From positions 55,288-119,287 of the forward strand of contig NZ_ML014754.1 of NCBI RefSeq assembly GCF_003675895.1: 64,000 nt of DNA, in the 5' to 3' direction. Under the pieces are notes generated by a model. That model was not told the origin of the DNA, made no database searches, and saw only the letters and a list, made by a program, of their open reading frames with translations. Below are positions 31,161-35,835 of this stretch, in pieces. The first letter of the stretch is position 1, and each line of letters starts with the position of its first letter. Source of the stretch: Parashewanella curva (lineage in GTDB: Bacteria > Pseudomonadota > Gammaproteobacteria > Enterobacterales > Shewanellaceae). Position numbers and translations under genes: made by a program.

Positions 31161-33959
31161 TTAATTATTGATTCGAGCGATAGATGCGATAGCTACAGCA
31201 CTGTTGTACACCACGCTTGTTACTTGCTGCCATAATGTAAGCGTATCTTTGTACTCGGTATCTAGCGGTACGATAATTGTGTCACCAGGCATCATTCTAG
31301 TGCCAGCACTAAGGAAGCCAGTATCTGGAATAACCACTGAACCATTCGCTCTTAGGATATAGCTTCTACCCTCATCCGCACGTTTACGCGCACCGCCTGC
31401 CATACTTAGGTATTGTTCAAAGGTTTCACCTTTAATAAACCTATGCGTACTTGGGTACTGTACTTGTCCCATCACTGACACAGTTTGGTTCTTAGATGGA
31501 ATGTAGAGTTCATCGTTTGCTTCTAGTTCAATATCCGCTGATTTGATATCACCTAAAATAGCTGATAAATCGATACTTAAGCGCCCAACAACTTCGATAT
31601 TTTGTAATTGGTCAAGCATTTGCTGTGAGTCTTTATAGCTTATCGTTGTCCCATCTTTGGTTAACGCTTTTGCTGCGATTTCTCTTCTCAACTCATCTGC
31701 TAGGTTTCTTACCTGCTCCTGCTCTTTTTCTTTGATTGATTCACGAAGGAAAATCGAGCCATAGGTGAAGGCATTAGGTGTTAAACCGCCTGCTCTAGTG
31801 ATTACGTTTTTAAGCGTTTCTCCACGTTGAATACTGTATGTACCAGGAAAACGTACTTCACCTTTAATGCTTACCCAACGTGTTTGCTGCCAATCAGGTA
31901 GTTTGCGTACTGAAATAACATCACGAGATTGAAGTTTTAGAGAGTTATGGTTTACGTGCAATACATCATTAAGATTCAATTCTTTATGTATGATCTTCGC
32001 ACCTTTAATTGGATCAATTTGTTGGCGAGTAAGCTCAGCAGACAGAGTATAACTGCCTTCTTCTAAACCTCCAGCTGCTGTTAATAAATCTCTTACAGAA
32101 CCATTCTCTACAAGAGGATAAACACCTGGATATCGAACCGAACCATTAACCTCAACTAGCTTAGCCATTTCACCCAAATGGGTTTGTTTTTTCAATTGCT
32201 GGATGATTGGTAGCAGTGCAATTTGACGTTCATCGTCTTTAAAGACAACAATTTTATCTCTAGGTTCTAACAGTAAGTTATCTTTTGAATCATTAAACTT
32301 GATTGCATTGTTTAACGAAAATTGAAGAACCTCAACTTCATCTTGCTCATTGATGGCTCTAAGCACTACAGCATAAGTTAAATCAGCCCCTTTGCTCAAA
32401 TCCGAACGAACAGAATGGAAGATATCTGAAACTCGCATCCCTTTCGTCCACTGGTATTGACCAGGACGAGTTGCAGCACCAGCAACTTCAACTGAATTCT
32501 CAAGGCGATCCGAAGAAGAACTTACTGTGATGTAGTCCCCATCTTTCACATTTTGACGTCGGCCTTGAGTGGTTGTGTAATCTACTGAAATAACGGTTTT
32601 GAGATGATTTTTATTAAATCTTTCTACTGATATTGCTTTTGCAAATGCTTTTGCTTTAAGTCCACTTGCCATGTTAATGACATCGGCAAAGTTTTCATCT
32701 TTTTTTAGCTCATAAATCGCAGGGCGACGAACATCACCATCGACACTTACATAAGCTTTAGCTGCAGGAATAAAAACAACATCGCCAGATTGCAAACGTA
32801 GGTCAGAAGATGAATCACCACGCATCAATAAGTCGTATAAATCAAGCTTTCCAACGAGTTTACCCGCTCTTTTTAACTCGATATTACGCAAGGAACCGAT
32901 ATTGCTAATACCACCAGATACATAAAGCGCCTGTGTGATTGTAGATAGACTCGATACTGTATAACTGCCTGGCTTATAGGCTTCGCCAGCAATAAAAATA
33001 CGAATAGAACGCAGTTGACCTAGTGTAACACTCGACTCTACGCCAATCGTTGAAGACTTAATTTTATCTTTGATGAGCTTTTTAGCTTCTGCAAAGCTTA
33101 GGCCTACGATTGAGATCGGCCCTACCTGCGGTAATTGAACCGTACCATTGCGCTGTACAACAAGCTCAAAGTTATCGCTTTCTTTACCATAAGTTTGAAC
33201 ATTGATGGTATCTCCTGGGCCAACCATATATTCAGATGGAACGGGTACATCTGAAATAGGAGCAAAAGTGGTTGGCTCACCTGCAAACATATCTAGACCG
33301 AAGATTTGAAGCGGTTTCTTTGTTTTTTGTTGCTTATCGTTAACTTTGGCTAGAGTTAATGTCCCAAAGTTATTTAAAGTGTATTTCTTACCAAGATTAT
33401 CAATAAAGTACTGATTCCCAGCAATTGTTGTTTTACAAATAATATTTGGTTGATTTTCAGGCCTAGGCTGTAAATTTGTGTTCTGCTGCCCGCTATTATT
33501 TAAACTATTTAAGCCTCGACTTTGACCACTCAGATTCCCATTCTGGCTATTCAAACCATCCATTTGAACGTGCCGGCTAAATTGACCGTTATTAGCCTTA
33601 AAATTTTGATAATCACTTTGGCTACTTCTTATTGTGTTCTTTTTATGTTTTGTTGATACAAATGAGCTAGAGCCGATGGCGCTACAATCTTCAATTAAAT
33701 CTGCATCAAAGTAAGCTGTTCTTGGTTTTACAATTGGCTCTTCAAAATCATTGTTATCATTACGGTTTAATTTAGAACCACCAGTAAGACTCGAAATATC
33801 TATGCCGTATTGTTTGGCTAACTTCAACTGTTCTGATTTTGGCAATTGTTTGAATTGCTCGATCATTTGTGGGGTTGGAGTTAATGCAATTGATGAAAAA
33901 CTCGCTGTTGCGACAATTGCTATTCCTACAGCAATGAGAGATTTCGCTTTTGGAAACAC
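31161..33959 (-). CDS. Multi-SLBB polysaccharide export protein (Wza-like)
   Basis: The 932-aa protein has a signal peptide (LIAVGIAIVATASFSSIA) without a lipobox cysteine, a poly-export domain (VPSEYMVGPGDTINVQTYG, about residue 240) and about six SLBB repeats, each with a xGxVxxPGxY core (GEAYKPGSY, GDVRRPAIY, GAATRPGQY, GSVRYPGVY, GEVRFPGTY, GQVQYPSTH). It is far larger than the ~380-aa Wza of E. coli and matches the long export proteins of Shewanella and Vibrio. The C-terminal helix could line an outer-membrane pore. It is the first gene after the ops element. Confidence 0.93.
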   Translation of the reverse strand: MFPKAKSLIAVGIAIVATASFSSIALTPTPQMIEQFKQLPKSEQLKLAKQYGIDISSLTGGSKLNRNDNNDFEEPIVKPRTAYFDADLIEDCSAIGSSSFVSTKHKKNTIRSSQSDYQNFKANNGQFSRHVQMDGLNSQNGNLSGQSRGLNSLNNSGQQNTNLQPRPENQPNIICKTTIAGNQYFIDNLGKKYTLNNFGTLTLAKVNDKQQKTKKPLQIFGLDMFAGEPTTFAPISDVPVPSEYMVGPGDTINVQTYGKESDNFELVVQRNGTVQLPQVGPISIVGLSFAEAKKLIKDKIKSSTIGVESSVTLGQLRSIRIFIAGEAYKPGSYTVSSLSTITQALYVSGGISNIGSLRNIELKRAGKLVGKLDLYDLLMRGDSSSDLRLQSGDVVFIPAAKAYVSVDGDVRRPAIYELKKDENFADVINMASGLKAKAFAKAISVERFNKNHLKTVISVDYTTTQGRRQNVKDGDYITVSSSSDRLENSVEVAGAATRPGQYQWTKGMRVSDIFHSVRSDLSKGADLTYAVVLRAINEQDEVEVLQFSLNNAIKFNDSKDNLLLEPRDKIVVFKDDERQIALLPIIQQLKKQTHLGEMAKLVEVNGSVRYPGVYPLVENGSVRDLLTAAGGLEEGSYTLSAELTRQQIDPIKGAKIIHKELNLNDVLHVNHNSLKLQSRDVISVRKLPDWQQTRWVSIKGEVRFPGTYSIQRGETLKNVITRAGGLTPNAFTYGSIFLRESIKEKEQEQVRNLADELRREIAAKALTKDGTTISYKDSQQMLDQLQNIEVVGRLSIDLSAILGDIKSADIELEANDELYIPSKNQTVSVMGQVQYPSTHRFIKGETFEQYLSMAGGARKRADEGRSYILRANGSVVIPDTGFLSAGTRMMPGDTIIVPLDTEYKDTLTLWQQVTSVVYNSAVAIASIARINN

Positions 33960-34102
33960 GTGCTTTCTCCGTATTTGAGAATGTTGAGTAATTCCAGCAG
34001 TCCTGCTGGGTAAATTTTTTGTTGAAAGAGTTAACAGATGAGAGCTTTGTTACTTGTTAGTATATAAATGCTGAAAATGACAAGGTGCCTTTCAGTGTCG
34101 CA

Positions 34103-34441
34103 CAGTACCGACCCGCATATCGCACGCTACCGATCCGCGTGGCCCGCCAGAGGTGCTTCGGCGGTAGCTAAAAGAGTGAAACTGTTCACTTATTTGCCCT
34201 TCGAAAACATCTAAGAAGACACTTTTCAAGTGTCACACACTACCGACCCGCGTGGCGCGCCAGAGGCGCTTCGGCGGTAGCTAAATAAGTGAAACTTTTC
34301 ACTTATTTGCCCTTCGAAAACCTCCAAGAAGACACTTTTCAAGTGTCACACACTACCGATCCGCGTGGCGTGCCAGAGGCACTTCGGCGGTAGCTAAATA
34401 AGTGAAACTTTTCACTTATTTGCCCTTCGGGCACGCTACCG
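34103..34441 (-). repeat. Three 113-bp hairpin-rich tandem repeats in the operon leader
   Basis: Three units on a strict 113-bp period (starts 34103, 34216, 34329; the first partly diverged). In the transcribed minus strand each unit can form three hairpins: AAATAAGTGAAA/TTTCACTTATTT, a CTACCG...CGGTAG stem enclosing GTGCC/GGCAC, and GACACTT/AAGTGTC. Base changes in the inner stem are compensated between copies (GTGCC/GGCAC, GCGCC/GGCGC). Each unit also carries an ops-like core (CGGTAGTGTG or CGGTAGCGTG) on the transcribed strand. Confidence 0.85.
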
Positions 34442-34472
34442 CCCATAGGTTTCGGCTCCTAAAGACCATCTG
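34432..34472 (-). promoter_or_regulatory. JUMPstart element with ops site
   Basis: On the minus strand the 41-bp block begins CAGATGGTC, contains TAGGAGCCGAAACC, and ends with GGCGGTAGCGTG (34432-34443), a perfect 12-nt ops core. In known systems RNA polymerase pauses at ops and RfaH loads on the exposed non-template strand, then suppresses termination over the long operon. It lies 470 bp before the export gene, and rfaH is encoded just upstream. Confidence 0.93.
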
Positions 34473-34549: not shown

Positions 34550-34601
34550 TAAAAACAAGCAATGCTTATGAATATCTTACTACTGATACTCATAAGCATT
34601 G
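34550..34601 (-). terminator. Rho-independent terminator after rfaH
   Basis: The minus strand forms a long stem CAATGCTTATGA ... TCATAAGCATTG (12 perfect pairs, extended inward with one mismatch) followed by CTTGTTTTTAATC. It lies 240 bp past the rfaH stop and before the JUMPstart, so it would separate the two transcription units. Confidence 0.65.
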
Positions 34602-34837: not shown

Positions 34838-35350
34838 CTAAGCTGAAAGCTTGTCTATTGCCTCTAGTGGAACTTCCACTCGCTTCATAGAACCCAGTAG
34901 CTTAAGAAGTACGAAACACCGCTTTTCACCAGACGTTTCTTCAAATACACCTTCTATTTCAGAAAATGCACCATGGTTGACTTTAATTTTGTCACCTTTT
35001 TGGGGTAGCTGTTCTTCTAACTCGATAGGTTGGTTCATCATCTTAGCAACTTGAACTTTGATTGCCGTAATGAGTGAAGGATCAATCGCAGTCATCACTT
35101 CTTTGCAACCCACGATTTGGCTTACGCCGCGGGTAGAATGGATACGACTTACCGAAGTGACTTTGGGGTCAAAATAAATAAATAGGTAATTTGGAAATAA
35201 AGGCACATTACTTACGGTCTTCTTTCCCGACCTTTGCTTTTTGGCCTCGAGATACATGGGTAAGTATGTCTCGATACTTTGCATTTGGAGGTTTTGCTGT
35301 GCCCGTATTTCACTTTTGGGTTTGCAGTAGACTAAGTACCAAGCTTTCAT
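34838..35350 (-). CDS. rfaH: Transcription antitermination factor RfaH
   Basis: The 170-aa NusG paralogue starts MKAWYLVYCKPKSEIRAQQN, has the NGN-domain PLFPNYLFIYFDP and a C-terminal KOW domain with KGDKIKVNHGAFSEIEGVFE. RfaH binds the ops element and promotes transcription and translation of long surface-polysaccharide operons. The ATG at 35350 is used because AGGA lies six bases upstream and it gives the family N-terminus; an upstream ATG at 35386 adds 12 unsupported residues. The ops target lies about 400 bp downstream of its own stop. Confidence 0.94.
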   Translation of the reverse strand: MKAWYLVYCKPKSEIRAQQNLQMQSIETYLPMYLEAKKQRSGKKTVSNVPLFPNYLFIYFDPKVTSVSRIHSTRGVSQIVGCKEVMTAIDPSLITAIKVQVAKMMNQPIELEEQLPQKGDKIKVNHGAFSEIEGVFEETSGEKRCFVLLKLLGSMKRVEVPLEAIDKLSA

Positions 35351-35835
35351 TGTTGTTCCTGATTCATTATATGTAGCAGGTGACATCCTCTATCACGGCG
35401 ATTGATACTACAAACATTTAGATCTGATTAAAAGTGGTTTTGCTACTTTTTTTGATCTCAACAGGCTTAACTGATTAAAAATTATCTAGCAATGAATTTT
35501 CTTTATCACTAGAAACTATTACATCTCTATTGACCGAGTAAAAACTATATTGATATTAATTACTCACGTTACAGCCTAGTTCTTTATTAAACTGCTCAAA
35601 TTACGAAGCACATCTTTTATTCTAAAAAAACCGATTGGTTAATCGAATTTAATGCGTAATTGCTTGCTTATTTTGTGATATGTACAGCTATGAATAAGTA
35701 GCCATTCTGGGGCTTTCAGTTTGACTTTTCCTCTCTATAAAAGGTATATATAGCCTGATAATTCATAAAAATTAATATTGGTTAATCTTTGTTTTTAAGT
35801 AAACCAAAAAATTTTAAATTAGGTGGGAAACAATA
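35351..35835 (+). promoter_or_regulatory. Intergenic region with probable promoter of the peptide transporter
   Basis: This 485-bp gap between divergent genes is very AT-rich. A TTGACT box at 35721-35726 is followed after 18 bp by TATATA (35745-35750), about 85 bp before the transporter start. I see no gene or repeat in the rest. Confidence 0.5.

Follow-up and report, generated by a model that had tools for sequence, protein, structure and literature searches.

RfaH is a model for the recruitment of a specialised NusG paralogue, and the locus described here raises the question of what further ops-like cores, built into tandem hairpin repeats directly after a perfect ops, might do in the leader of a polysaccharide operon. 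The window, a stretch of 64,000 nucleotides from the 4.78-Mb genome assembly of Parashewanella curva, carries on its minus strand, in this order, rfaH, a terminator-like hairpin, a JUMPstart-like stretch with ops, three repeat units and a polysaccharide-export gene (Table 1), with further polysaccharide genes detected by profile search 3' of the latter. A first-pass annotation made from the letters had described a perfect ops followed by three 113-bp units, each with CGGTAG(C/T)GTG on the transcribed strand, and both the coordinates and our pattern search agree with it. A tandem-repeat scan likewise recovered direct repeats of 113 nt, three times over, at 34120-34458 (2.7 copies, 93% matches). 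The protein encoded by the window rfaH matches E. coli RfaH chains in the PDB, and the JUMPstart match of the window (32.2 bits) lies below the gathering score of RF01707, which is 35.

Table 1. Features of the rfaH leader and its surroundings, in window positions; features of the leader are ordered as transcribed.
Feature	Position	Strand	Evidence or remark
rfaH	34838..35386	-	directly 5' of the leader; scores 181.1 bits with TIGR01955 RfaH (cut-off 144.5)
Terminator-like hairpin between rfaH and ops	34560..34601	-	scan: 2 in the region against 0.9 expected in shuffles
JUMPstart-like stretch, with hairpin J and with ops at its 3' end	34432..34464	-	RF01707, 32.2 bits, E 4.6e-05
Repeat unit 1, first transcribed	34346..34458	-	R1, 110.8 bits, but unit 1 is itself in the R1 model
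ops GGCGGTAGCGTG, perfect 12-mer; also the 5' strand of RNA stem A	34432..34443	-	exact match
hp1 of unit 1	34422..34431	-	comparison of leaders and fold prediction
hp2 of unit 1	34396..34421	-	both-side changes in 7 of 10 pairs
Anti-ops strand GCTACCGCC, forming 9 bp with ops in the window (stem A)	34386..34394	-	fold prediction
hp3 of unit 1	34370..34382	-	comparison of units and leaders
Linker GCCACGCGG and second core	34349..34369	-	linker CACGC can pair with core positions 8-12 (hairpin E)
ops-like core 2, CGGTAGTGTG	34349..34358	-	pattern match
hp4, 3' of core 2	34331..34348	-	fold prediction
Repeat unit 2, ending in core 3 (CGGTAGTGTG, 34236-34245)	34233..34345	-	repeat search, R1 and pattern match
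Repeat unit 3, ending in core 4 (CGGTAGCGTG, 34123-34132); hp3 broken	34120..34232	-	
Degenerate fifth core CGGTACTGTG, after unit 3	34101..34110	-	read from the sequence
First gene after the leader, polysaccharide-export protein	31161..33959	-	top hits are EpsE and further export proteins, none of which reaches its cut-off

The array is confined to this leader in the window genome: no full copy was found elsewhere in it, besides two short matches of 22-26 nt (E 0.47). CGGTAGYGTG occurs at 13 sites in the 4.78 Mb, four of them, ops included, within 320 bp at the leader; the pattern read backwards occurs 19 times. Bases 3-8 of the core, CGGTAG, are present in all three units, and each extra core of the window differs from ops in at least two of the 12 bases. 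A second ops leader of the same genome (C13:6777) carries no module. Elsewhere in the genome, two further CGGTAGCGTG sites (C7:965 and C25:61504; L217 and L221) have alike surroundings, with an AGAAGGA..TCCTTCT palindrome and a GTTATG end, and positions 1-484 of the window hold a tandem 197-bp unit, in 2.5 copies, with three tRNA genes on the minus strand.

We built a covariance model, R1, from an alignment of 14 units (A1), dropping one module copy that touched a run of N, and searched relatives with it. Besides the window genome, its GTDB genus includes Parashewanella hymeniacidonis (G001) and Shewanella sp. OPT22 (G002), and the element is present in all five genomes of the genus, always between rfaH and the operon. 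Its copy number differs between species, from one to at least seven modules: there is one in G003 and in G004, there are three in the window genome and in G002, and G001 gives seven matches, or eight with a partial one, in an array that holds a run of N. RF01707 scores above its gathering score in G001 (43.5 bits) and G002 (42.1 bits), G003 has an exact ops without an RF01707 match, and in G004 another gene follows the leader, judged by eye to encode a Wza-like lipoprotein. In the wider family, probably Shewanellaceae, R1 matched 58 of 152 genomes under strict filters that lose weak matches: the five of the window genus, 53 of 129 in a large genus (g4) that is probably Shewanella, and none in the three other genera. 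An order-wide sample of 394 genomes from 115 genera gave matches in 13 genomes, and these belong to the same two genera.

Within those 58 genomes the module keeps its place. By hand tally it sits at or near the leader ops in 56, abutting or overlapping ops in 52 and lying within about 75 nt of it in four, while G028 and G042 have dispersed copies only; 49 of the 58 have no dispersed match at all (also a hand tally). An rfaH gene lies 5' of the leader in 56 of the 60 loci fetched from outside the genus, as it does in all five within it. The leader module appears, from sequence comparison, to extend to Parashewanella and many Shewanella species. Two other searches were run. Ops followed by CTACCGCC was found in 23 stretches among 84,980 species genomes, two of which are the same element by eye (L031, Parashewanella hymeniacidonis; L036, Shewanella sp. 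OPT22), while the other 21 look unrelated; two ops cores with 57-87 nt between them, the one spacing searched, were found in four genomes, each from the window family, out of 295 that represent the order. JUMPstart itself is commoner, with RF01707 matches in 118 of the 152 family genomes. About half of these have no R1 match under the strict filters, and the C13 ops leader of the window genome lacks the module, so the module is not required. One such JUMPstart leader, at the rfaH locus of G042 (L115), has no R1 module and seemingly, by eye, a different array of small hairpins after ops.

For a closer comparison we took 50 of the 51 module-bearing g4 leaders and the five of the genus, 55 in all, together with ten JUMPstart leaders without an R1 match; each was cut at the first open reading frame of at least 140 codons, which is approximate, and four (L127, L152 and L154, together with L175, which has a very early reading frame) were cut arbitrarily or short. 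The usual layout, read 5' to 3', starts with hairpin J and ops, runs through hp1, hp2 and the 3' strand of stem A to GAAG and hp3, and closes with GCCACGCGG, two variable bases and core 2. The transcribed strand of the window leader (441 nt) folds better than its shuffles (z -4.3), but the opposite strand folds more strongly (z -7.1), as inverted repeats do, so energy alone is no proof of a function in the transcript. For the first module of the window the program predicted J, stem A, hp1, hp2, hp3 and E (z -4.0), and for four relatives wholly or partly other folds (z -4.5 to -0.7). Given these variable predictions and the stronger antisense fold, the structure rests on comparison more than on energies.

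That comparison used an alignment of 40 first modules (A2), the other 15 of the 55 leaders being left out for insertions or a different hp3 region. Changes on both sides of a pair were found in two of four pairs of J, two of four of hp1, seven of ten of hp2, three of five of hp3 and two of five of hairpin E, where they come from rows L141 and L163. Cells with such changes numbered 150, against 43.6 in shuffles, a count reached by none of 500 shuffles, which ignore relatedness. Stem A, paired in 77.9% of cells over the 40 leaders, had none in its nine pairs, since ops does not vary; the stem reaches its full 9 bp in three of the five genus genomes (G000, G001 and G002), whereas g4 has interruptions in it. 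When 42 dispersed module copies, most of them without ops, were compared, both-side changes were found in two of six pairs of stem A and nine of 11 of hp2, with 148 cells against 43.7 in shuffles. Stem A, compensated in these copies, therefore belongs to the fold.

The proposal of the first-pass annotation that the fold is being kept is thus supported by covariation scoring over relatives, with compensatory changes beyond those of shuffles. Its particulars fared less evenly. The exchange of GTGCC/GGCAC for GCGCC/GGCGC that it had cited as compensation is real (four pair types among 13 distinct units), but unit 3 breaks the stem at two pairs (GCACC/GGCGG); and the three hairpins that it had drawn for each unit hold in outline, though not in every copy, hp1 relying on G-U pairs in units 2 and 3 and hp3 being broken in unit 3.

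A run of GC-rich hairpins directly after ops might suggest an array of terminators or attenuators that only RfaH-modified polymerase passes, all the more as E. coli RfaH is known to suppress termination, and a graded terminator barrier had indeed been suggested for this leader. We regard this as very improbable. The scan found no terminator-like site, that is, a GC hairpin with a T run, in 34120-34458, and the sole such site on the minus strand lies upstream of ops. Nor is the pairing of the anti-ops strand with core 2, on which an attenuator switch would turn, kept over the 40 leaders: it is possible in 71.2% of cells, no better than in shuffles, and we rejected a switch between ops and core 2 as a general mechanism, even if fold prediction makes one look possible in some Parashewanella leaders. 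Two other pairings are possible in nearly all cells of the alignment, that of ops positions 8-12 with the linker (99.5%) and that of the JUMPstart loop GCCG with core 2 (97.5%), and neither showed covariation beyond shuffles.

We then asked how far the second core accompanies the module. An extra CGGTAGYGTG was found in 41 of the 55 module-bearing leaders, for a total of 61 extra cores, where 0.05 would be expected by chance in 26 kb of uniform bases; 14 leaders have none, 25 have one, 13 two, two three and one four. The antisense strand of the same 55 leaders holds no extra core, and neither do the ten sampled JUMPstart leaders without an R1 match under strict filters, two of which (L177 and L178) give weak R1 matches of 22-24 bits in a more sensitive search and one of which (L176) resembles a decayed module. 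The leader of G069 (L120), which lies outside the 55, has a degenerate second core, CGATAGTGCG.

From the start of ops to the start of the next core the distance is mostly 82-87 nt (80-85 nt when counted from core to core), lengthening to 154-156 nt where a 72-nt hairpin module sits in a loop or, in L156, another insert; exceptions are L145 (98 nt), L160 (130 nt) and L147 (226 nt), as well as G001 and G002, in which the first units are short and have CGGTTGTG at their end. The 72-nt module, itself made of several hairpins (L140, 1566-1637), occurs in the hp1 or hp3 loops of RfaH leaders and was matched in seven of ten genomes tried (G026, G033, G041, G065, G069, G096 and G147), at several places in G033 and G069.

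Within A2 the second core has CGGTAG in 32 of 40 leaders, the whole CGGTAGYGTG in 27 and GTG at positions 10-12 in 28, and GG precedes it in none of the 40, which means the loss of G1 and G2 of ops. Core positions 3-8 have a mean pairwise identity of 0.92, compared with 0.68 at positions 9-12 and 0.61 at the two bases before the core, next to 1.0 for ops, 0.97 for the GAA after stem A, 0.94 for the linker and 0.63-0.75 for hp1-hp3. The core shares half of its length with the 3' arm of hairpin E, so its conservation may in part reflect structure.

A different explanation uses this overlap: the module would persist solely on account of its RNA fold, through mRNA stability or by blocking Rho or backtracking after ops, and the second core would be a by-product, its GCGTG half being the 3' arm of hairpin E and the rest a remnant of tandem duplication of the ops region. 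Tandem duplication is evident, two of the five pairs of hairpin E do show both-side changes, and compensation is also seen in the dispersed copies that lack the core (nine of 11 pairs of hp2 and two of six of stem A, n = 42). The bases of the core argue otherwise, since positions 3-7 lie in the loop of hairpin E and are yet kept better than the paired positions 9-12. In three leaders, moreover, the hp3 region looks replaced and the core stands at the same spacing nonetheless, intact in L153 and L165 and degenerate in L167.

The module copies away from JUMPstart leaders provide a control for the same question. R1 gave 43 such matches (tallied by eye), 42 of which we examined. At the 3' place where leaders have their second core, CGGTAG is present in none of the 42; near the 5' end it is present in four, three of them with a full ops there, which may be RfaH leaders of another kind. 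Because R1 found both sets, detection does not explain the difference between 41 of 55 and none of 42. A Fisher test gives p of about 1e-15 if the copies are independent, which they are not, as they fall into few subfamilies with more than half in two genomes, and the value therefore overstates the evidence. It is thus the RfaH leader, more than the fold, that the second core accompanies. With CGGTAG missing from that place in the copies examined elsewhere, we consider conservation of the fold alone unlikely, if still a serious contender.

The dispersed copies also bear on the idea that the module is a spreading hairpin repeat, of REP or MITE kind, that is tolerated in an untranslated RfaH leader and has no function for the operon. 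Related modules are indeed dispersed in some genomes, in mosaic blocks (14 in G042, 11 in G069), and the 72-nt hairpin module inserted in hp1 or hp3 loops of some leaders is found elsewhere in some genomes too. A repeat that merely spreads would not be expected at or near the leader ops in 56 of 58 genomes, with 49 of the 58 free of dispersed matches, nor with a core that goes with leaders and an array found nowhere else in the window genome, and we think this explanation improbable. For the window genome itself we rejected a purely dispersed repeat, the array being single there; a minority of relatives, G042 and G069 among them, do have many copies.

The dispersed copies have features of their own. 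Those of L101-L105, L116, L192, L193, L204 and L208 (in G042, G069, G099, G028 and G149) are embedded in repeat mosaics that extend over several hundred bp. One type, whose end resembles TATACAAATGTTAGGY, stands in several loci just before an open reading frame, and in L101 the GTTAGGC is preceded by a GCCTAAC some 540 bp upstream, ends that we take to be reminiscent of those of integron attC sites. Reading frames beside the copies (L107, L116, L106 and L109) encode nSTAND1, AAA_21/AbiEii-like and ORC-CDC6-like ATPases, with AAA_23 just under its cut-off; ATPases of such kinds are often seen in defence islands. Five of the ten reading frames tried had no Pfam match.

Repeated RfaH loading sites, the first of the functions that had been suggested for this leader, is the one best supported by the comparison, given extra cores in 41 of 55 leaders on the transcribed strand only and the lack of CGGTAG at that place in all 42 dispersed copies examined. 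We put it at an even chance, judging from sequence, that the structured leader offers RNA polymerase repeated ops-type sites and that the extra cores are additional sites of RfaH recruitment. The repeats would be copies of a structured module that belongs to the leaders of RfaH-type polysaccharide operons, in Shewanella as well as in Parashewanella. A polymerase that missed RfaH at the first ops would meet another ops-type non-template hairpin, and more of them where modules stand in tandem. Folded RNA between the cores probably shields the untranslated leader from Rho and hinders backtracking, and RNA folded close behind the polymerase could help it to escape, with little free RNA left for Rho; a polymerase that RfaH holds at ops is prone to backtracking and depends on help for its escape (Zuber 2024, PMC11001881). 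The sequences themselves show the position, the strand, the compensated fold and a core that these leaders keep and other copies of the fold lack; recruitment at the extra cores, the shielding from Rho and any effect of copy number are what we infer from this arrangement.

How well an incomplete core might serve can be gauged from E. coli ops, where the single changes C3G and T6A reduce RfaH recruitment and G4C, G5A, A7T and G8C abolish it (Zuber 2018, PMC5995543), bases 11-12 set the pause, and each single substitution except G2C lowers the effect of RfaH (PMC5995543). Core 2 keeps bases 3-8 best and lacks G1 and G2, which suggests a weaker but usable RfaH site. Several observations weigh against repeated loading: 14 of the 55 module-bearing leaders have no intact extra core, G1 and G2 of ops are missing from the extra cores, second cores arise by tandem duplication without any further cause, leaders that share ancestry do not count as independent cases, and two of the four ops-contact residues are changed in the RfaH found here.

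These residues in E. coli RfaH are K10, H20, R23 and R73 (PMC5995543). The window RfaH keeps K10, R16 and R73 and has N for H20 and M for R23; in a set of 27 RfaH sequences of the clade, 25 carry N and two carry H at position 20, and position 23 is L or M throughout. Its C-terminal domain was predicted by AlphaFold2 as a beta barrel (pLDDT 84, pTM 0.60), from a shallow alignment of 27 close sequences and without an E. coli control. In an assay in E. coli, RfaH relatives of the beta-barrel kind were reported to be active in the absence of ops (PMC13015549, preprint), which together with the prediction speaks against strict ops dependence. One might guess, on the other hand, that an RfaH with weaker ops contacts profits from several sites.

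The locus resembles the RfaH/ops leaders of E. coli (of the rfa, kps, hly and wza type) in having an rfaH homologue, a perfect ops in a JUMPstart setting and a polysaccharide operon 3' of it, and differs from them in that its leader contains further ops cores, each part of a module that folds and is repeated in tandem. In E. coli CFT073, with a single ops per unit, RfaH reloading was judged unlikely (PMC9765446). As in the JUMPstart RNA (RF01707), hairpin J is followed by ops, but that family spans 38 positions and ends at ops, whereas the module lies 3' of it. No Rfam family reaches its gathering score on the window module; the window has two weak matches, both far below gathering, one to BSR0709 (E 0.005) that lies for the most part upstream of ops and one to SSRC8_2 (E 0.12) on the opposite strand. 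On the module copies of 19 G042 and G069 loci no family matched at E up to 0.5, save JUMPstart before the module.

In Shewanella, RfaH proteins of cluster CL7 are encoded within exopolysaccharide operons (PMC7593976), and the likeness to our locus is one of gene position, with rfaH adjoining an exopolysaccharide operon; the available text of that paper describes neither repeated ops cores nor a leader module. Like REP and BIME palindromic repeats, the units are short hairpin modules that are dispersed in some genomes of the family, and unlike them they stand at one operon leader in 56 of 58 genomes. RfaH/ops control is already known; among the open-licence literature, as far as its accessible text goes, we found no report of repeated ops cores in a leader, and the modular leader with repeated cores is new there.

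The module is a structured leader motif for which we found no Rfam match above gathering. If repeated loading is true, each added module, with the ops RNA built into its fold, would bring one more non-template ops hairpin. It is conceivable, though we hold it doubtful, that two genera have turned single-shot loading into a distributed RfaH loading zone tunable by copy number, in which module number would set the read-out of the operon, perhaps offsetting weakened ops contacts. A leader common to two genera, its ops cores repeated within a conserved RNA module, would give natural templates with one to several ops-type sites. On these one could directly test reloading, how expression depends on site number, and what RNA that has folded behind a polymerase does during a pause.
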